DNA from: Candidatus Krumholzibacteriota bacterium
GTDB lineage: Bacteria; Krumholzibacteriota; Krumholzibacteriia; Krumholzibacteriales; Krumholzibacteriaceae
Direction of reading: 5' to 3'
Assembly (NCBI GenBank): GCA_030609325.1
Contig: JAUWCL010000021.1
Location: 1 to 58,152 of the forward strand
DNA: 58,152 bases
Of the stretch, positions 5,725 through 26,196 are shown piece by piece; the stretch's first letter is position 1, and each line of letters opens with the position of its first letter. The notes beneath the pieces were generated by a model. The model was not told the origin of the DNA and ran no database searches. It worked only from the letters and a program-made list of their open reading frames with translations. The position numbers and the translations under genes were made by a program.

Positions 5725-6972
5725 TTATTCGTAGTGCAACGCATCGATAGGATTCAGCTTTGCTGCCCGCATCGCTGGCCAGAACCCGAACGTCAGTCCC
5801 ACCGCTGTGCAGAACGCCAGCCCCACGATCGTCCATTCCATTGGCACATGCGCGGAAAAGTCGGTCACGAGGCTGATGATGTTCCCCAGCCCGAACCCAA
5901 CGGCGACGCCGATGATCCCCCCGATGTTGCAGAGGATGATCGCCTCCATGAGGAACTGCAGCATGATGTTGCGGCGCCTCGCGCCGAGCGCCTTTCGGAT
6001 GCCGATTTCCTTGGTGCGCTCGGTGACCGAGACGAGCATGATGTTCATTATCCCGATGCCGGCGACGATCAGCGCGACGATGCCGATAGCGAACGAGCCG
6101 GCCTTTATCCCGGCGGTCGTCTGGTTGAACGTCCTGATGTTGCTGTCGTTGGTGAATATCGTGAAGTCGTCCTCTTCGTGGGGCTTGAGGCCCCGCTCCA
6201 TCCGCATGACCGTCCTGGTCTCGTCGATCGCCTTCTGAAGCAGCTCGGGCGTTTTTGCCCGCACGGTGATGTTCACCGAGCGCTCCTCGCCGTTCGGTCT
6301 GCGCGTGCCGTATATCTTCTTGAAATGCGTTATCGGGATGATCAGGTACTGGTTGAACCGCCCGCCTATCGCCGAGCTCTTGTCCTCCAGCACGCCGATG
6401 ACCTGGAACTTCCTGCCGTCTATCTTGATCGTCTTCTGCAGGGGGTCGGACCAGGGGAAGAGCTCCTGCGCGACGCCGTGTCCGAGGAGCACGACCCTGC
6501 GGCCGACGCTCACGTCCTCGTGGGAGAGGTTGCGGCCGAGCTGGACGTAGTGCGTGTTGTTGGTAGTGTACTCGGGGGTGCCCCCGCAGATCATCAGGTC
6601 GGGGTTGGTCTTTCTGTCGCGGAACGAGGCGACGTGGGTGTAGCCCCAGAGCTCGGGGCCGACCAGGTCGACGCTCTTTACCTTCTTGCGGATCGCGTCG
6701 GCGTGCTCGGTGGTGGTCGGGCGGCGCGCCTGGATCTTGCGGAATTCCTCTTCGCTCATAGCTCCGGCGGCGGCCTGCTTCTGCACCTGGAAGGTCTGCG
6801 TGCCGAGGACGCTGATCTCCTTCTCGATGGAGGTCTGGACGATCGAGATGCCCGTCATCACGGCGATGATCGAGGCCACACCGGCGATGATGCCGATCAT
6901 CGTCAGAAACGACCTCATCTTGTGGGCCTTCAGTGCCGAGAGCGCCATTCTCAATGCTTCCAGTACGAACAT
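5725..6972 (-). CDS. MacB/FtsX-family ABC transporter permease (second of two)
   Basis: A protein of about 415 residues. It has an N-terminal transmembrane helix (MIGIIAGVASIIAVMTGISI), a large MacB_PCD periplasmic domain and three C-terminal helices with the FtsX-type motif MLVSVTERTKEIGIRKALGA. It ends in PAMRAAKLNPIDALHYE, the standard terminus of MacB-like permeases. ATG 6972 is preferred because GGGAG lies upstream; an alternative TTG is 21 bases earlier. It is the last gene of a minus-strand operon: adaptor (8302), permease (7015), then this one. MacB-type systems act as mechanotransmission transporters driven by a cytoplasmic ATPase, but no ATPase is encoded in or next to the operon. 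Confidence 0.88.
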   Translation of the reverse strand: MFVLEALRMALSALKAHKMRSFLTMIGIIAGVASIIAVMTGISIVQTSIEKEISVLGTQTFQVQKQAAAGAMSEEEFRKIQARRPTTTEHADAIRKKVKSVDLVGPELWGYTHVASFRDRKTNPDLMICGGTPEYTTNNTHYVQLGRNLSHEDVSVGRRVVLLGHGVAQELFPWSDPLQKTIKIDGRKFQVIGVLEDKSSAIGGRFNQYLIIPITHFKKIYGTRRPNGEERSVNITVRAKTPELLQKAIDETRTVMRMERGLKPHEEDDFTIFTNDSNIRTFNQTTAGIKAGSFAIGIVALIVAGIGIMNIMLVSVTERTKEIGIRKALGARRRNIMLQFLMEAIILCNIGGIIGVAVGFGLGNIISLVTDFSAHVPMEWTIVGLAFCTAVGLTFGFWPAMRAAKLNPIDALHYE

Positions 6973-7014
6973 GTCTGACTCCCGGGCGGACAATACGCCC
7001 GTGCCGCGGGGCGC

Positions 7015-8256
7015 CTACTCATAGGCGAGCGCGACGATCGGGTTTAGCTTCGCCGCCCGCATCGCGGGCATTATTCCCGAGACGATTCCTATCATGAACG
7101 ATACGAGGATCGCCACTATCACTATCGGCAGCGACACCGCCGCCGGCATCATGAACTTGTTTATCAGCGCCGCGACAATGTAAGAGAACACCAGCCCGAT
7201 CGTGCCGCCGACCGTGCAGAGGCAGCACGACTCGAAGAGGAACTCTGTCAGTATCATCCCGCGCCTCGCGCCGACCGCCTTGCGGATGCCGATCTCGCGC
7301 GTCCTCTCGGTGACCGAGACGAGCATGATGTTCATCACGCCTATCCCGCCGACGAAGAGCGAGAAGCTCGTGATGATGAACCCTATCAGGATCACGATGC
7401 CCATCACGTTGTTGTAGGCGCTCATAAGGCTGTCCATGCTGTTGATCGAGAAGTTGTCCTCCGCAGTCGGGCCGAGCTTGCGGATCTTCCTCATCTCGCT
7501 GACCAGCTCGTAGCGGAAGGTCTCCAGCTCCTCCTGGCTCGGCGCCTTGGCGGCGATGGTGAACTCGCGGTTCCTGCTCCCGTAGGCCTTCGTGAAGCTC
7601 GTTATCGGGACGAATATCCGCCTGTCGAAGTTGGGGCCGCCGAAGAATCCGCCGCTGCCCTGCGTCTCCATCACGCCTATGACGCGGAATGCGTAGCGGC
7701 CTATCTTGATGTCCTTCTGCAGGGGATCGGTGTTCCTGAAGAGCTGCTCGCGGATCTCGCTGCCGATGACGCAGACGAACTTGCGGTTGTGGACGTCGGA
7801 GGCGCTGAAGAAGCGGCCGTGCTCGGGGACGCCGCTTGCTACCATCATCTGCTTATCGGTGGTCCCGATGACGATGAGGTTCTCGAGGACCGTCGACCTG
7901 AACTTGACGTTTCTGCTGGCGTAGGTCGACGGGTTGATCGCTATCGTGCCCTGCATGCGGCGGGCGAGCTCCTCGGTCTCCTTGTACTTGATATGGGGGC
8001 GGTTGCGGTACTTGAAGTAATCCCCCGTGATGATCCACGGCATCCTCGAGACGTAGAGGACGTCGGAGCCGACCGCCGAGATGCTCTCCTTGAAATTGTT
8101 CCCGAGGCCGTTGGAGACGGTCATCGTGGTGGCGATGGCGAGGATGCCGATGACGATCCCGAGGGTCGTCAGCGTAGCCCGGCTCTTGCTCGCCCGGAGC
8201 GCCCTGAGGGCGATGGCGAACGATTCTCCGATATTGTACAGAAATGAATGCATCAT
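7015..8256 (-). CDS. MacB/FtsX-family ABC transporter permease (first of two)
   Basis: About 413 residues with the same layout as its neighbour at 5725: one N-terminal membrane helix (TLGIVIGILAIATTMTVSNG), a MacB_PCD periplasmic core and three C-terminal helices bearing MLVSVTERTREIGIRKAVGA. It ends PAMRAAKLNPIVALAYE. ATG 8256 and ATG 8253 are both possible; the ribosome site is weak. The two permeases are clear paralogues and probably pair as a heterodimer. The gene follows the adaptor gene at 8302 by 45 bases and precedes the second permease by 42 bases, so one transcript is likely. Confidence 0.88.
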   Translation of the reverse strand: MMHSFLYNIGESFAIALRALRASKSRATLTTLGIVIGILAIATTMTVSNGLGNNFKESISAVGSDVLYVSRMPWIITGDYFKYRNRPHIKYKETEELARRMQGTIAINPSTYASRNVKFRSTVLENLIVIGTTDKQMMVASGVPEHGRFFSASDVHNRKFVCVIGSEIREQLFRNTDPLQKDIKIGRYAFRVIGVMETQGSGGFFGGPNFDRRIFVPITSFTKAYGSRNREFTIAAKAPSQEELETFRYELVSEMRKIRKLGPTAEDNFSINSMDSLMSAYNNVMGIVILIGFIITSFSLFVGGIGVMNIMLVSVTERTREIGIRKAVGARRGMILTEFLFESCCLCTVGGTIGLVFSYIVAALINKFMMPAAVSLPIVIVAILVSFMIGIVSGIMPAMRAAKLNPIVALAYE

Positions 8257-8301
8257 TCGTAACAATGTTCGGCGCCCTGGTATTTGAACCCAGGCACTCC
8301 G

Positions 8302-9591
8302 TTATCCGCCGTTCTTCTCTTCCCTCTTCGCCAGTACCGGCGTATTGTTCCCGAGTTCCTGACTGATTGCGCGGTAGCTGCCCGATACGATCTCGTCGCC
8401 CACCGACAGCCCCTTGACGATCTCTATGTGGGTGTCGCTCTGGATGCCCGTCTCGACCTGCACGGCCTTCGCGAGACCGTTCTTGACGACGAATACTATC
8501 GAAACGAACCCGTCCCTGTCGGGGGTGTACCCCGGCTCGGAGGTGCTGTCGGCGAGCGCGTCGCCCAGGGCGGCGCTCTTGTCCTTTGCCGGGCCCTGCG
8601 GTTGGAGCTGGTCGGGGGTGCGTACGGTGACGCACTGAATCGGCACGCAGAGGGTGCTGTCGCGCGTTTCGATGACTATGTCGGCGCTGGCCGTCATGCC
8701 GGGGCGCAGCTGCTCGACGGGATCCAGGATGGCGAGCTTGACCTCGAACTCGGTCTTCTGGTCGGTCGAGCCCATGCCGGAGATGTTGGCGCTGCTGGCG
8801 ATCTCGCGCACGATGCCGCTGAAGACCCTGTCGGGCATGGCGTCGATCTCGATCGATGCGCTGTCGCCGAGGCTCACGCTGACGATGTCGTTCTCGTCGA
8901 CGTTGACGAGCGCCTCCATCTCGGAGAGGTTCGAGACGATCATGATGACGTCTTCCTGGAACTGCGATCCGAGCGCGATCTCGCCGACTTCCTTGTTCAG
9001 CATGCTGATCGTGCCGGTCATAGGCGCGTATATCGTCGTCTTGGAGTGATTGTCCCTCGCCTGCTTGACGGCGGCCTCGGCCTGGGCGACCTGCTCGAGG
9101 ACCGACTGGTACCTCGCCTTCTCGATCTTTACGGTCGAGAATGCCTGGTCGTATATCGCCTCCGACTCGAGGTTGCGTTTTACGAGGGTCTCGGTGCGCG
9201 CGAGGTCCTTCTCGGCCTTGACGACCGTCTCTCTGGCCAGCTCGGCGTTGGCCTGGACCGAGCGCAGGCTGGCCTCGGACTGCTCGAGGGCGGCGACGTA
9301 GCGTTCCTGGTCGAGGCGGACGAGCAGGTCGCCCTTTTCGACCCAGTCGCCCTCCTTGACGCCGAGGAAGGTGATCTTGGCGGCCACGTCGGCGCTGATC
9401 TTCACCCTCGTGCGAGGCTCGATCTTGCCGGTGGCAGTTACAGTCTCAATGATCTCTTGTTTTCCGGTTAAAATGGTCTGAACACTTGTCTTACTCGTTC
9501 CGTTCTTGTTCGCCATAACCACAACAATGACGATTATGACGACTGCAACTGCCGCAAGAAATATGATCCGTTTCTTCCCTAACCTGGCCAT
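8302..9591 (-). CDS. MacA/HlyD-family periplasmic adaptor protein
   Basis: The 429-residue product has one N-terminal membrane anchor (IIFLAAVAVVIIVIVVVMA) followed by a barrel-sandwich half-motif (GKIEPRTRVKISADVAAKI, VKEGDWVEKGDLLVRLD). A helical hairpin (about residues 95-175), the second lipoyl half (APMTGTISMLNKEVGE) and beta-barrel domains follow. This is the membrane-fusion-protein fold that links inner-membrane MacB-type permeases to an outer-membrane channel. The start has GGGAG at a good distance. It heads the operon with the two permeases; neither an ATPase nor a TolC-type channel is nearby. Substrate unknown. Confidence 0.88.
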   Translation of the reverse strand: MARLGKKRIIFLAAVAVVIIVIVVVMANKNGTSKTSVQTILTGKQEIIETVTATGKIEPRTRVKISADVAAKITFLGVKEGDWVEKGDLLVRLDQERYVAALEQSEASLRSVQANAELARETVVKAEKDLARTETLVKRNLESEAIYDQAFSTVKIEKARYQSVLEQVAQAEAAVKQARDNHSKTTIYAPMTGTISMLNKEVGEIALGSQFQEDVIMIVSNLSEMEALVNVDENDIVSVSLGDSASIEIDAMPDRVFSGIVREIASSANISGMGSTDQKTEFEVKLAILDPVEQLRPGMTASADIVIETRDSTLCVPIQCVTVRTPDQLQPQGPAKDKSAALGDALADSTSEPGYTPDRDGFVSIVFVVKNGLAKAVQVETGIQSDTHIEIVKGLSVGDEIVSGSYRAISQELGNNTPVLAKREEKNGG

Positions 9592-20144: not shown

Positions 20145-21215
20145 CTATTCCGGGCCGGCGGCTAACGTGTCGGGCTTTACCAGTCCGGCAATCCCGATCG
20201 CCAGCGAATCCGGCAGGGCTGTGGGTTCTGACGATTCCTTGCCGGTCCCGGCGAGCTTCCAGTCCTCCATCTCATCGATGAAACGCTGCGCATAGTCTTT
20301 CATGTCGATCGCTTTCAGACCCGGCTCCTCGTCGACGTTCTGGACGCGGACCAGGTTGGCGCAGGCCTTGTCATGGCCGTCATCGGCTTCGAGGGCGGCG
20401 CCGTAGGCCGCCGCAGCGGAGCGGAAGCGGCCGGTACGCTCGAGGGCCATCCCGAGGTTGTTCCAGAATATCGCCCTGGTGCTGTCGATCTGCGTGGCGC
20501 GGGCGAGCGGGAGCAGGGCATCCGCAAAACGCTCCTGCCCGATCATGATCAGAGCCATGTTATTCATCGACCAGGCGTCCCTGTCGTTGATGCCGATGGC
20601 GGCGCGGTACGACTCGATCGCCTCGCCGGTGCGTCCCAGCTGGTCGAGGGCCCGGCCCTTGAGGCATAAGGCGACATTCGAACCGGGGTCGACCCCAAGC
20701 GCCCCGTCTATCCTGACGAGCGCCTCTTCCGGCCGGCCGGTGTCGAGGAGCACGCGGCTGAGGTTGAGCATGCTCTTAACGTGGCCGGGAGCGAGGGCAA
20801 GCGCCTTCTCGAACGACTCCTCGGCGTATTCGTAATCGCCTGCCTTCCAGGCGGAAAGACCGAGCATGTAGAACCCCCATGGATTCTCGTCCCTGTTGCC
20901 CGTGTAGATCGTGAACAGCTCGACTGCCTTTTTGTACTGCCTGTCGTTATAGGCGGCTTCGGCATCCTCGTAGGCGACGAACTTCGGCAACTCGGTTTTC
21001 TCCGGCTTCGCGACGGTGTGGTCCTCCACCGGAACGGCCTTGGGCGCGCTCGATACCGGCGGCTGATTGGTCAGTGCGGGTCTGGTCGTCCTGTCGACCC
21101 TGCGGCGGGCCGTGCGGTTGGTGTTGTCCTCACCGCAGCCGGTGACGAACGCGGCGATTATCAGTACCGCGGCGATCGCGATGCCCGTGACCCTTATTCT
21201 GAGTGTGCTCAGCAT
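20145..21215 (-). CDS. TPR-repeat lipoprotein under sigma-54-like control
   Basis: ATG 21215 is selected because AAAGGAGG lies 8 bases upstream and the product (356 residues) then begins with a lipoprotein signal (lipobox VTGC). A Thr/Pro-rich linker is followed by about six tetratricopeptide repeats (from YEDAEAAYNDRQYKKAVELF through FRSAAAAYGAALEADD), a protein-protein scaffold exposed to the periplasm. A GG-N10-GC element at 21301-21286 and two palindromes at 21397-21446 upstream indicate activation by an NtrC-type regulator, whose gene lies immediately upstream. It is probably the direct target of that two-component system. Confidence 0.82.
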   Translation of the reverse strand: MLSTLRIRVTGIAIAAVLIIAAFVTGCGEDNTNRTARRRVDRTTRPALTNQPPVSSAPKAVPVEDHTVAKPEKTELPKFVAYEDAEAAYNDRQYKKAVELFTIYTGNRDENPWGFYMLGLSAWKAGDYEYAEESFEKALALAPGHVKSMLNLSRVLLDTGRPEEALVRIDGALGVDPGSNVALCLKGRALDQLGRTGEAIESYRAAIGINDRDAWSMNNMALIMIGQERFADALLPLARATQIDSTRAIFWNNLGMALERTGRFRSAAAAYGAALEADDGHDKACANLVRVQNVDEEPGLKAIDMKDYAQRFIDEMEDWKLAGTGKESSEPTALPDSLAIGIAGLVKPDTLAAGPE

Positions 21216-21285
21216 GTCGGGCCTCCTTTCGGGTTTACGCCCTTGCGGGCTCGGGTTGGTGAACTGCTTTCGTAATGGATAGAGG

Positions 21286-21301
21286 GCAAGCGGAGGACCG
21301 G
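21286..21301 (-). promoter_or_regulatory. Sigma-54-type -24/-12 promoter
   Basis: On the minus strand the site reads CGGTCCTCCGCTTGCC. GG at -24 and TTGC at -12 have the exact spacing required for RpoN, although the bases between depart from TGGCACG. Transcription would start near 21275, 60 bases before the TPR lipoprotein start. Two enhancer-like palindromes lie about 110-160 bases upstream. Confidence 0.6.
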
Positions 21302-21396
21302 ATATTTCATGGAAAATGCTACTTGATTCAAGATGTTGATATGTAATGTGTTGTAGAAGTAATGACCGGCCGGCTCGTGGCTCGTTTTGGTGGATT

Positions 21397-21446
21397 GTGT
21401 CCAACGGGACACGCTGTGGCAATGCCCGATGTGTCCGTGCGGACAC
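21397..21446 (-). promoter_or_regulatory. Two enhancer-like palindromes (GTGTCC-N4-GGACAC)
   Basis: Perfect inverted repeats GTGTCC-N4-GGACAC occur at 21397-21412 and 21431-21446, with centres 34 bases apart (close to three helical turns). They lie about 130 and 164 bases upstream of the predicted sigma-54 start. That is the usual place for tandem upstream activator sites of NtrC-family regulators, and the regulator gene ends at 21458. The differing N4 centres (AACG, GTGC) argue against a simple duplication. Confidence 0.7.
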
Positions 21447-21457
21447 GTCGGGGGAGG

Positions 21458-22813
21458 CTATTTTTTCCTGATGTTATGCCGGCGCATGATTTTCAGGAGA
21501 GAAGCGTGGTCGGCGAGCCCGAGGCCGGACGCAGTCTTTGTGATCTGCCAGTCGTTCCGCTCGAGGGCGGCGATGATGATCCGCCGCTCGGCATCCGACT
21601 TGAGCTCCTGGAACGTTCCCGCTTCGGATACGGAGGCCGCTCCCCGGCCCTCGCGTACCTCCGCCGGCACGTCGCCGGGGCTGATCGTATCGCCTGCGGC
21701 CGAGATGACCATCCGCTCGATTATGTTACGCAGCTCGCGTACGTTGTTGCGACGCCACTCGAACTCCATCAGGAGAGAGAGGGCATCGGATGAGAGCTGC
21801 TTTACCCGCACGCCGAACCGCGTGCAGATGGTCTCCAGGAAATTCGCGGCGAGTTCGGCGATGTCGGAGCGACGGTCGCGCAGCGGCGGAACATGGATCA
21901 TGTGGACGTTTATCCTGAACATCAGGTCCTGGCGGAACCTGCCCGCTGCGACCTCGGCCTCGAGGTCGAGGTTCGTGGCGGCGACGACGCGTGTGTCGAC
22001 GTCGATCATGCGGTCTCCTCCGACGCGCATCACCTTTCGTTCCTCGAGTACGCGCAGCAGCTTGGCCTGCGCGGCGGCGGGCAGCTCGCCGATCTCGTCG
22101 AGTAAGAGGGTCCCGCCCGTGGCGAGCTCGAAGGCTCCCTTGCGTGTGCGGTCCGCGCCGGTGAACGCGCCCCGCTCGTGCCCGAAGAGCTCACTCTCGA
22201 CGAGGTTCTCGGGCAGCGCAGCGCTGTTTATCGCGATGAAGGGCAGATTTGGCCCGGGGCCGAGGCGGTGGAGCTCGCGCGCGACCAGCTCCTTGCCCGT
22301 GCCGCTTTCCCCTGTAACCAGAACGGGGCTCGGGATGCCGGCAACGCGGGCGATCTGTTCGCGGAGCTGTCTTATCGCGCCGCTCGAACCGATGATCGGC
22401 GAGTCGGCGCCGAGATCGCGCCTCAGCGCGGCGACCTCGGTCTCGAGCCTGACCCGTTCGAGGGCGTTCTCGACCTCGCGGGAGACGCGCTCCATCGATT
22501 CGGCCTTGTCGATGAAGCTGTAAGCGCCGAGATGGATCGCCTTCATGCAGCGGTCGAAGTCGCCCGTGCCGGTATAGACGATCACCGGCGTCGGATCCTT
22601 CCGCTCACCGAGCCGGCGGAGGACCTCGAACCCGTCGACGCCGGGCATCTCGAGATCGAGTATGACGCAGTCGACCGCCTCGCTGGCGATCATGTCGAGC
22701 GCCTGCTCGCCGCCGGTGGCGACGATCGTCTCGTAGCCGCCGACGCGCTTGAGGTCGTAGGCGTACTGCTGAGCGAGGGGGAGGACGTCGTCCACTATCA
22801 GTACAAGCGCCAT
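21458..22813 (-). CDS. NtrC-family sigma-54-dependent response regulator
   Basis: 451 residues in three parts. The receiver domain has acidic pocket Asp8/Asp9 and phospho-acceptor Asp53 (ILDLEMPG). The AAA+ domain has Walker A GESGTGKE at 168-175, the sigma-54 contact loop GAFTGA at 215-220, Walker B LLLDE and R-finger region LRDRRSD. A C-terminal Fis-type helix-turn-helix spans about 405-447. The intact GAFTGA loop shows it should activate RpoN promoters. It starts 4 bases after the kinase stop, and its likely target is the TPR lipoprotein gene just downstream. Confidence 0.93.
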   Translation of the reverse strand: MALVLIVDDVLPLAQQYAYDLKRVGGYETIVATGGEQALDMIASEAVDCVILDLEMPGVDGFEVLRRLGERKDPTPVIVYTGTGDFDRCMKAIHLGAYSFIDKAESMERVSREVENALERVRLETEVAALRRDLGADSPIIGSSGAIRQLREQIARVAGIPSPVLVTGESGTGKELVARELHRLGPGPNLPFIAINSAALPENLVESELFGHERGAFTGADRTRKGAFELATGGTLLLDEIGELPAAAQAKLLRVLEERKVMRVGGDRMIDVDTRVVAATNLDLEAEVAAGRFRQDLMFRINVHMIHVPPLRDRRSDIAELAANFLETICTRFGVRVKQLSSDALSLLMEFEWRRNNVRELRNIIERMVISAAGDTISPGDVPAEVREGRGAASVSEAGTFQELKSDAERRIIIAALERNDWQITKTASGLGLADHASLLKIMRRHNIRKK

Positions 22814-22817
22814 CTCG

Positions 22818-24494
22818 TCATTCTCCAGCTTCCGCGGGCAGATGTATGATCATCCGGGTCCCCGCGCCTGCAGTGCTTTTTACGTCTATTCTGCCGTCCA
22901 GGTCCATCACGAGCCTCCGTACGATCGATAACCCCAGGCCAGTCCCGTCCGTCTTCGTAGTATAGAAATCATCGAATATCCGCGCCTTCTGCTTGTCGCT
23001 CATCCCCGCGCCGGTGTCGGCCACCGTGACCCGGATCCATGTCCGGCCGTCGTCACCCGGGACGTGCTCCGTCGTGACGGTTACGGTCCCGTGATCCGTC
23101 TCGATACTGTCGATCGCGTTGCGCACGAGGTTTTCGAGTATCCGCCGCAGCGCCACGGGATCGGCCTGGACCATTGCTCTTTCGCAGAGGTCGGCTCTCA
23201 GCCGGGCCGGCCCCGTGCACTGGAGGTCCGTTACGATGCTGGAAGCTGCAGCGCTCACGTCGCACGGCCGGCGATCGAGGCGAGGATACAGGCGCGCGTA
23301 GCTCGATGCAAGGTCATCGAGGTATCCGATGCTCGAGTCGAGCGTCTCCTCCCGTTCCGCGAAGACCTCGGGCATCTTCTTCGGGTCCTCGCGCGAGAGC
23401 TGCGACAGGTGGCGGATCACGTTTCGGATCGGGGTCAGGCCGTTCTTTATGTCGTGGTTTACCTGTCTTGCCATCTCGCCCAGCGTCGCGCGGCGCTCGG
23501 CGTCCCTGATCCGCAGGGCGCCGGCCCGCAGCCTGTCGGTCATGGCGGCGAGAAGGCTCGAGAGGGCACCGATCTCGTCTTTGCGATCGGTCTCGAACTC
23601 GACATCGAGGCGATCGAGATCGATGCGGGAGGTCTTCCCAGCGAGCTCGGTGAGCGGCCGGCTTATCCGAGAGGAGAGCCAGCCCACCAGGATGATGGCG
23701 GCAAGGCCGGCGACGGCCAGCACGATGAGGAACCAGCGGTCGATGCTCCGGCGAAGATCGTCGAGCCCGGCAAGGTCATGCGTCACGCTGAAGCTCGCTT
23801 CATCGAGCTTCATGCGATCGGCGCCGATGTACGGTACCCTGAGCTCGCGGACGATCGCCCGCGCGGGAACCGGCGGCTTTGATCCGCCCGGCGGAACCAG
23901 GGTCACCGCGAGGTCGGTCTCTCCGGCCAGACGGGAGAGGAAGCGCTCTTCCACCGCCACTCCGCCCGTAACCGTAAACAGGCGGCCGCCGATTTGCAGC
24001 GAGTCGATGCGGGCCAGTACGATCAGCAGTTTATCGGGAGTGCGCACCTCGAGGAGCGCAGTTCCACCCGGCGCCGCGGCGAGCAGTCGCGGGAGCTCCG
24101 GCTCGAGACGGTCGTATTCGTTGCGGAAATGCCCGGAGCTGATGATGCGTCCCGCCTGATCCTGAATCTGGAGCATCGAGAGGCCGGCTATCCGCATCGC
24201 GCCGCCGGCGTAATCGAGCAGGTAACGGCGTTCGCCCTGGTCGCGTACGACCGCGGCGCTGCGAAACCGGTTGTCGTCGAGGATGGCCTCACGCAGGGCG
24301 GCGAGGGAGGCGGCGATCGCGGCGCTGTCCTGCTCGATGTCGTCCTCGATGACCGAGACCAGCGCCGTGACGCGCTGCTCGTACTGCGCGATGAGGCGCC
24401 TCGTCATCTCGAACCTGATAAGGAGTGAGAGGGCGATCATCGGCACGAGCACGGCCGAGAGGAAGATGACGAGAAGGCGATTACGGAACGACAA
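22818..24494 (-). CDS. Membrane sensor histidine kinase
   Basis: 558 residues. Transmembrane helices lie at about 6-27 and 253-275, bracketing a periplasmic sensor of about 225 residues. A HAMP linker follows (about 275-325), then a dimerisation helix with His347 in QVNHDIKNGLTPIRN. The HATPase domain has N box NLVRNAIDSI, G1 DTGAGM and G2 GTGLGLSIV. The NHDIKN form of the H box is that of NtrB/NtrY-like kinases paired with NtrC-type regulators. It starts from a TTG whose GGGGAGG ribosome site lies at the end of the binding-protein gene, so the three genes are co-translated. Confidence 0.92.
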   Translation of the reverse strand: MSFRNRLLVIFLSAVLVPMIALSLLIRFEMTRRLIAQYEQRVTALVSVIEDDIEQDSAAIAASLAALREAILDDNRFRSAAVVRDQGERRYLLDYAGGAMRIAGLSMLQIQDQAGRIISSGHFRNEYDRLEPELPRLLAAAPGGTALLEVRTPDKLLIVLARIDSLQIGGRLFTVTGGVAVEERFLSRLAGETDLAVTLVPPGGSKPPVPARAIVRELRVPYIGADRMKLDEASFSVTHDLAGLDDLRRSIDRWFLIVLAVAGLAAIILVGWLSSRISRPLTELAGKTSRIDLDRLDVEFETDRKDEIGALSSLLAAMTDRLRAGALRIRDAERRATLGEMARQVNHDIKNGLTPIRNVIRHLSQLSREDPKKMPEVFAEREETLDSSIGYLDDLASSYARLYPRLDRRPCDVSAAASSIVTDLQCTGPARLRADLCERAMVQADPVALRRILENLVRNAIDSIETDHGTVTVTTEHVPGDDGRTWIRVTVADTGAGMSDKQKARIFDDFYTTKTDGTGLGLSIVRRLVMDLDGRIDVKSTAGAGTRMIIHLPAEAGE

Positions 24495-24499
24495 GCAGC

Positions 24500-26005
24500 T
24501 TACCTCCCCGGCGGCACCGCAGCTTCCTGCGGCAACGCGCCGGTGACGAACGGATTACCATACCAGTCTATCGAGAGGCCGGCGGCTCCCCTGCGCATGA
24601 TCACGTGCCGCCGCGTATCGACGAGCGGCAGCAGGGCGCGGGCGAAATCCCCGCCGAGTCCCGTCAGCCAGCGCGCGTTCTCGACCAGCAGCTTCGCCTC
24701 GTTGCACGGGTCGGGCGGATTCAGGGGCAGCGCGATGATATATGCGAAGTCGTCGCCCTCCAGCAGGCTCTCGCGGATCTCCGCCCCGGTGGCTCCGGCA
24801 GCCGCTATACCCTGCGCCTGACCGGCGAGCTCTGGTATGGCCGAGGAGATCTGCGTCGCCTCGGGCGAAGCGCCGGGACCGGCCACGGCGAGCGCGACTA
24901 TACGCTCGGCAAGATCCCGGGCGACGGGATCGGATCTGTCATAGAGGATACGCCGCGGGGCGGACGGTGCATACGCACTGTGCGTCAGGGATGGCCGCCA
25001 CTCTGCGCCTTCGAACAGGACGGCGCATCTGTTCAGCCCGTCCCACCAGCAGGAGGCCTGATGTCCGCGGGCGACGCCGCGAACCGCGTCCTGCGCCAGG
25101 CCGTCGGAGAACTCCCGGGAGATCCCGGCGGGGATGCGCCCCGAGCGGATATCCCGCACGCGCGATGTCGAGAGAAGCACGTAAGTCATGTTCCAGGGGA
25201 GGGGGGCTATCTCGAGGTGCGGCCGCGCGGCGGCGTATTCGATGACGTCCGGATCGGCGGTGATCATGATGTCGACAGTTCCCTCGAGCAGGTCGCGCGC
25301 GTCACGGGCCTCGGGCTCGATGAACCGGATGACCGGTCCGTCGGCGTTAAACGCCGGGGATGCCGTGAAGGAGCGCCTGTGCATCAGGCTCGCCCACATC
25401 GGCTCCGATTCGATCCGGTAAGGGCCTGAGCCGATGGGCCAGCGGTGCGGCGGCGCATGCTTCGCCACCGCGAACAGACGGGTGGACACGGCGCCGGGGA
25501 TGTCTTTGTGGGGCCGTGAGAGGTAGACATGCACGCTGCGTTCGCCGACGACGGCGGCCGAGTCGACGCCGGCGGCCCAGATCAGCGCTTCGGCATTCGG
25601 GCGCTGCCAGCACAGGACGACGTCGCGGGGGGTAACAGGACTTTTATCCCAGTACCGTGCGTCCGGCCGCAGATCGAATGTCCAGCGCCGCCCGCCCTCT
25701 CCGCTGTACCACGATGCGGCAAGACCCGGCCGTACCTTTCCCCGGCAGTCGATCGTGACCAGGGTCTCGTAGAGGTGACCGAACAGGATCCGCTCGCTCT
25801 CGCTGCGCGCCGCCGGCGCATGAAGCGGATCGACCTTTCCGGGAAGGGCGATCCGGATCGTGTCGGCCCATTCGGCAGGCGCCGGCAGGACGAAGCACTC
25901 CGGGGTGAGCGCGGGCCCTGTCTCCATCGCACGCCGTCCTCCGCAGGCGGAGAGCGTCAGCATGCCGCACAGGGCGGTCATCAATACTGTGAACGATTTA
26001 CGCAT
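24500..26005 (-). CDS. Solute-binding lipoprotein, SBP family 5 (oligopeptide/nickel type)
   Basis: ATG 26005 gives 501 residues beginning with a lipoprotein signal (LTLSACGG); ATG 26029 is an alternative. The rest fits the SBP_bac_5 family (DppA/OppA/NikA): DTIRIALPGKVDPLHAP, ILFGHLYETLVTIDCRGKVR, PGLAASWYS, RRWTFDLRPDARYWDKSPVT. It sits 5 bases upstream of the histidine kinase, and no ABC permease or ATPase gene is near. I infer that it serves as a periplasmic ligand receptor for the kinase instead of feeding a transporter. The ligand is unknown. Confidence 0.82.
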   Translation of the reverse strand: MRKSFTVLMTALCGMLTLSACGGRRAMETGPALTPECFVLPAPAEWADTIRIALPGKVDPLHAPAARSESERILFGHLYETLVTIDCRGKVRPGLAASWYSGEGGRRWTFDLRPDARYWDKSPVTPRDVVLCWQRPNAEALIWAAGVDSAAVVGERSVHVYLSRPHKDIPGAVSTRLFAVAKHAPPHRWPIGSGPYRIESEPMWASLMHRRSFTASPAFNADGPVIRFIEPEARDARDLLEGTVDIMITADPDVIEYAAARPHLEIAPLPWNMTYVLLSTSRVRDIRSGRIPAGISREFSDGLAQDAVRGVARGHQASCWWDGLNRCAVLFEGAEWRPSLTHSAYAPSAPRRILYDRSDPVARDLAERIVALAVAGPGASPEATQISSAIPELAGQAQGIAAAGATGAEIRESLLEGDDFAYIIALPLNPPDPCNEAKLLVENARWLTGLGGDFARALLPLVDTRRHVIMRRGAAGLSIDWYGNPFVTGALPQEAAVPPGR

Positions 26006-26196
26006 CCTGTTGAATATACCATCTATCATATCGAGGAGGAACAGATTCGATGAAGGCCCGATTCCCGGCTGCCGGACATGAGTATCAGGAACTCTGCCGT
26101 CATACATGTTCGCTGGAGGGCTTTATCATGGAAGCTTGTTAAAGAACAGGTGAGCCGCTTTCATTTTTTTACGGAAAAAAGACAGCACAGGGGGAT

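Follow-up and report, generated by a model that had tools for sequence, protein, structure and literature searches.

The window, by which we mean the whole stretch of 58,152 nucleotides that was analysed, carries a gene cluster whose relevant members are all encoded on the minus strand, in the order solute-binding lipoprotein, kinase, regulator, intergenic region and TPR lipoprotein. The features of this locus are as follows.

24500-26107, minus strand: family-5 solute-binding lipoprotein, head of the cluster, kept in many orthologous loci
22818-24494, minus strand: membrane histidine kinase with a HAMP domain, predicted partner of the regulator, which it adjoins in most orthologous loci
21458-22813, minus strand: NtrC-type response regulator, predicted reader of the motif, with a receiver domain, an AAA+ sigma-54 activation domain containing GAFTGA, and a Fis-type HTH
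21461-21604, minus strand: Fis-type DNA-binding domain of the regulator, with the recognition helix region LGLADHASLLKIMRRH
21431-21446: distal palindrome GTGTCCGTGCGGACAC, centre at about -164, predicted activator dimer site, conserved in orthologues
21397-21412: proximal palindrome GTGTCCAACGGGACAC, centre at about -130, predicted activator dimer site, conserved in orthologues
21329-21341, minus strand: IHF consensus match TATCAACATCTTG (9 of 9), in an AT-rich block between the putative enhancer and the promoter, possible bending site
21286-21299, minus strand: predicted sigma-54 (-24/-12) promoter GGTCCTCCGCTTGC, GG-N10-GC, from sequence and ortholog alignment, predicted start near 21274
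21239-21250, minus strand: leader hairpin GCCC-GCAA-GGGC, within a leader element at 21222-21250, directly before the ribosome site
21222-21226, minus strand: ribosome site GGAGG
20145-21215, minus strand: TPR lipoprotein gene, predicted target, 356 aa, lipobox VTGC

The regulator scored above the cut-offs for PF00072, PF00158 and PF02954, and the GAFTGA motif was seen in its translation; it has the domains by which an NtrC-type sigma-54 activator is defined. A single rpoN gene is present in the genome. The element at 21286-21299 shows the GG-N10-GC arrangement with TTGC at -12 that defines a sigma-54 promoter. The -24 half in the window is itself weak, matching 7 of 12 consensus bases; the promoter GG and TTGCC are invariant across 11 aligned orthologues. 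The solute-binding lipoprotein may be a signal-sensing partner that might deliver a ligand to the kinase. A MacA/MacB-like efflux cluster is also found in the window (5725-9591, minus strand).

The first-pass annotation had described two inverted repeats with identical arms and different centres, about three helical turns apart and 130-164 bases ahead of the predicted start, and this description held throughout. The pattern GTGTCC-N4-GGACAC occurs twice in the window, with the same six-base arms (GTGTCC and GGACAC) in both copies and with centres that differ (AACG versus GTGC). The start-to-start distance of 34 bp corresponds to 3.2 turns at 10.5 bp per turn, for which "about three" is a fair description, and a start near 21274, as placed from the -24/-12 element, puts the centres at about -130 and -164. 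The ten-base core TGTCCN4GGACA was found twice in the window against a mean of 0.07 in 100 dinucleotide shuffles, and in none of these 100 shuffles of the window were two copies present. The core matches the whole 2.63 Mb genome at four places, namely the palindrome pair and two single copies, both of the latter within open reading frames. The genome-wide scan therefore gave no sign that the motif is common elsewhere, the pair in the window being the only occurrence outside genes.

The comparison set comprised 80 genomes of the phylum, of which 41 have a TPR orthologue (E about 1e-40 or better). A motif with at least 10 of the 12 arm bases was detected upstream of the TPR gene in 38 of 40 orthologues, these 40 being the 44 TPR-homologue upstream regions minus four distant ones from families f3 and f6; this is the recurrence at orthologous promoters on which the first-pass annotation had staked its proposal. 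Two TPR orthologues, those of G049 and G058, have just 9 of 12 arm bases. When the best site was taken in each of the 44 regions, all 12 arm bases were matched in 26 and 11 of 12 in a further 7; palindromes with shuffled arms reached 11 of 12 in a mean of 0.14 of the same 44 regions, with a maximum of 2. The exact tandem pattern was found in 7 of the 80 genomes, with a TPR orthologue adjoining it in all 7, and no instance of it was found in a backwards control of the 80 genomes. G008, a genome in one contig, has two exact complete sites, both at the TPR locus. G036 has three; the third lies just before an HflX-like gene that lacks a -24/-12 element, and we took it as a chance match and not as an extra target.

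Twelve genomes have the paired sites 34 bp apart and 21 have them 25 bp apart, the former distributed over four families and the latter belonging to a fifth. In G008, G033, G036, G009, G011, G078, G079, G076 and G075, an orthologue of the regulator (66-74% identity) is followed by the same pair at 34 bp. G010 likewise has the pair together with the TPR gene, at a contig end, and a degenerate pair (10/12 and 9/12) has kept the 34 bp spacing in G022. The 25 bp pair of family f5 has a strong site near the promoter and a usually weak second site. A conserved sigma-54 promoter was located about 88-114 bp downstream of the motif in nearly all TPR-homologue regions. The -24 GG stands 111-114 bp from the point at which the proximal site starts in the 34-bp group, and mostly 98-101 or 88-91 bp from it in the 25-bp group; these distances differ by increments of roughly 10-13 bp, close to a single turn of the helix. 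When 11 regions were aligned, most of the columns without variation ahead of the leader fell in the palindrome arms and in the GG and TTGCC of the promoter; the four central bases of the palindromes vary freely, and no other conserved palindrome was found upstream of the promoter.

The arrangement had further been proposed to predict the motif that the adjacent regulator reads, and this proposal gained support, as the motif follows the TPR promoter and the recognition helix of the regulator is nearly invariant. Because of its position, its co-occurrence and the conservation of its helix, we infer that the neighbouring regulator is the protein that binds the palindromes. Orthologues of the regulator and of the TPR protein are both present in 36 of the 80 genomes and both missing from 34; one occurs alone in 10, several of which represent contig ends. 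The recognition region LGL[AS]DH[AS]SL-KIM[RK]R is near-invariant among regulator orthologues of 48-74% identity, whereas paralogues have LG(M/L)-(Q/E)R(S/A)xLYKK, which is one residue shorter than the helix region of the orthologues. In a general genome collection, the next regulator matches after L035 (of this phylum, the same genome as G044) have at most 46% identity.

Family f6 does not fit as well. There, the regulator beside the TPR homologues is more distantly related and differs in its recognition helix, and the member G035 (L191) has a perfect palindrome despite its different-helix regulator, which counts against our assignment. GTGTC-N6-GACAC palindromes are still seen upstream of the f6 TPR homologues in L191 (G035) and L192 (G028). 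The palindromes might bind a different regulator, such as a repressor or a global factor, with the neighbouring activator binding elsewhere. Other regulators with two-fold symmetry use similar sites, and co-conservation within a single promoter is compatible with another protein as the reader. However, many sites would be expected for a global factor, and the genome has just this one pair outside genes; the position and spacing of the sites suit sigma-54 enhancers; the alignment shows no second conserved palindrome upstream of the promoter; and the presence of the motif follows that of the regulator across genomes. We therefore regard a different reader as improbable.

We also considered the possibility that the palindromes act as RNA at the 3' end of the regulator's transcript, either as a terminator or as two hairpins in tandem. 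The palindromes begin 12 bases past the stop codon of the regulator in the window; in several of the orthologues they also lie close to it, and a 6-bp stem is possible for each. No U-tract follows them, however, and the orthologous loci in which the two genes are apart largely refute this explanation. In G042, G045, G047, G066 and others, the regulator and the TPR gene stand 1.3-2.8 kb apart with other DNA in between, and in all such loci it is the TPR promoter that has the motif, not the end of the regulator gene. (The intervening DNA of G066 includes an SppA-like protease gene, as read from the translation.) Furthermore, among 48 changed arm pairs in degenerate copies, 33 were broken, 13 became G-U and 2 were compensatory; that most changes break the pairing indicates that the letters are conserved and not the pairing. 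No credible match to a known RNA family was found in the region. Since the motif stays with the TPR gene when the regulator is distant, and since changes in the arms break the pairing, we conclude from comparative evidence that it belongs to the TPR promoter as a DNA element, and a role as RNA is very unlikely. The TPR promoter of G004 has been lost at a contig end, and the next gene directly after the regulator there is not the TPR gene but a MacA-like one that lacks the motif and resembles that of the efflux cluster in the window, which suggests a rearrangement. That the palindromes are mere chance inverted repeats is scarcely credible, for although single copies with one mismatch are about as frequent as background in most genomes, the tandem pair was never produced by shuffling and is conserved across families with fixed spacing.

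The reading that we prefer, with a probability of roughly 0.88, is that the palindromes are enhancer sites of the TPR sigma-54 promoter and are read by the NtrC-type regulator, the whole forming a dedicated two-component module. Conserved palindromes upstream of a promoter, beside the gene of an activator or its target, are what characterises enhancer sites, and such palindromes are found here. By analogy with NtrC-type activators, the histidine kinase (22818-24494) would phosphorylate the regulator (21458-22813), two dimers of which would use the Fis-type domain to bind the palindromes and would assemble an AAA+ oligomer. The intervening AT-rich DNA would bend or loop, the sigma-54 RNA polymerase at 21286-21299 would be remodelled, and the TPR lipoprotein would be made as the output. 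Binding, phosphorylation, oligomerisation, looping and activation are all proposed on this analogy. Because exact complete sites elsewhere are rare, the circuit appears to be dedicated to essentially one promoter.

Two elements between the palindromes and the TPR gene may bear on this scheme. The exact IHF match was reached by 1% of shuffles; the AT-rich block around it is conserved, but the match itself is not consistently so, and the IHF scores of most orthologues resemble those of shuffles. Three genes of the HU/IHF family are present in the genome. The leader hairpin has no second match to its pattern GCCC-GCAA-GGGC in the genome, and orthologue leaders of similar length often have a hairpin at that place with different letters. 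The folding energy of the leaders is modestly below that of shuffles, with a mean z of -0.9, for which the statistics are weak. The hairpin in the TPR mRNA leader could possibly serve as a second layer of control.

A broader proposal, to which we would give somewhat less than even odds, is that the regulator represents a distinct subfamily of sigma-54 activators that is largely limited to a single phylum. Such a subfamily would combine a recognition helix of its own (LGL[AS]DH[AS]SL-KIM[RK]R, whose turn has one residue more than that of the paralogues) with a private DNA word (GTGTCC-N4-GGACAC), and would serve just one target. Its sites and promoter would have shifted by about one helical turn between families (from 34 to 25 bp in the pair, and from 113 to 99 to 89 bp to the promoter), and the leader hairpin would add its second layer of control. 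The interest of the locus lies in the phylum-wide conservation with variable spacing, in the unusual recognition helix and in the apparent single target. A testable assignment of a regulator to its DNA word is offered for an uncultured phylum in which little experimental work exists, the candidate motif of an unstudied switch being readable straight from the sequence. The many genomes, in which the site is kept and its spacing varied, provide a natural data set on how the geometry and helical phase of sigma-54 enhancers evolve, and a TPR lipoprotein of the envelope is marked as the probable dedicated output of a sensor kinase.

NtrC acts at glnAp2 through paired enhancer sites. The present locus resembles that system in having a receiver-AAA+-Fis regulator and two palindromes about three turns apart, some 100-165 bp upstream of a -24/-12 element. 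Unlike in the NtrC system, however, the motif GTGTCC-N4-GGACAC is not that of NtrC and there is one apparent target, a TPR lipoprotein gene; the regulator scores 364 bits against a cut-off of 559 for NtrC (TIGR01818). No reports of GTGTCC-N4-GGACAC were found in the literature. The upstream activator motifs of the NifA/FhlA type, TGT-N10-12-ACA (PMC6615313), likewise have inverted TGT...ACA half-sites upstream of sigma-54 promoters, but the spacer here is 8 bases (TGT-CCN4GG-ACA), outside the NifA-type range, and the conserved arm has six bases. The activator regulons predicted comparatively in Desulfovibrio vulgaris (PMC4641369) follow the same layout, in which an inverted repeat and, downstream of it, a sigma-54 promoter are both conserved beside an activator gene; the phylum, the motif and the target are different, and that paper's text contains neither half-site string of GTGTCC-N4-GGACAC. 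A survey of sigma-54 control (PMC3162934) tied the sigma factor generally to lipoproteins and the cell exterior, which fits a TPR lipoprotein as the target.

The combination of a kinase, a sigma-54 response regulator and a TPR lipoprotein is also that of PrsK-PrsR/PrsT in exosortase/PEP-CTERM systems, and PrsT is the best NCBIfam match of the TPR protein. A PEP-CTERM gene of Aquincola is RpoN-dependent (PMC9850573). We rejected the identification of the regulator as a PEP-CTERM PrsR, as all three proteins fall well below the NCBIfam cut-offs for PrsR, PrsK and PrsT (TIGR02915, 354 versus 503 bits; TIGR02916, 84 versus 300 bits; TIGR02917, 67 versus 312 bits) and the true PrsR is elsewhere in the genome. 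It lies together with an exosortase gene on another contig (C9:44373-51772), and because the two share this contig a PEP-CTERM sorting system is probably present in the genome.
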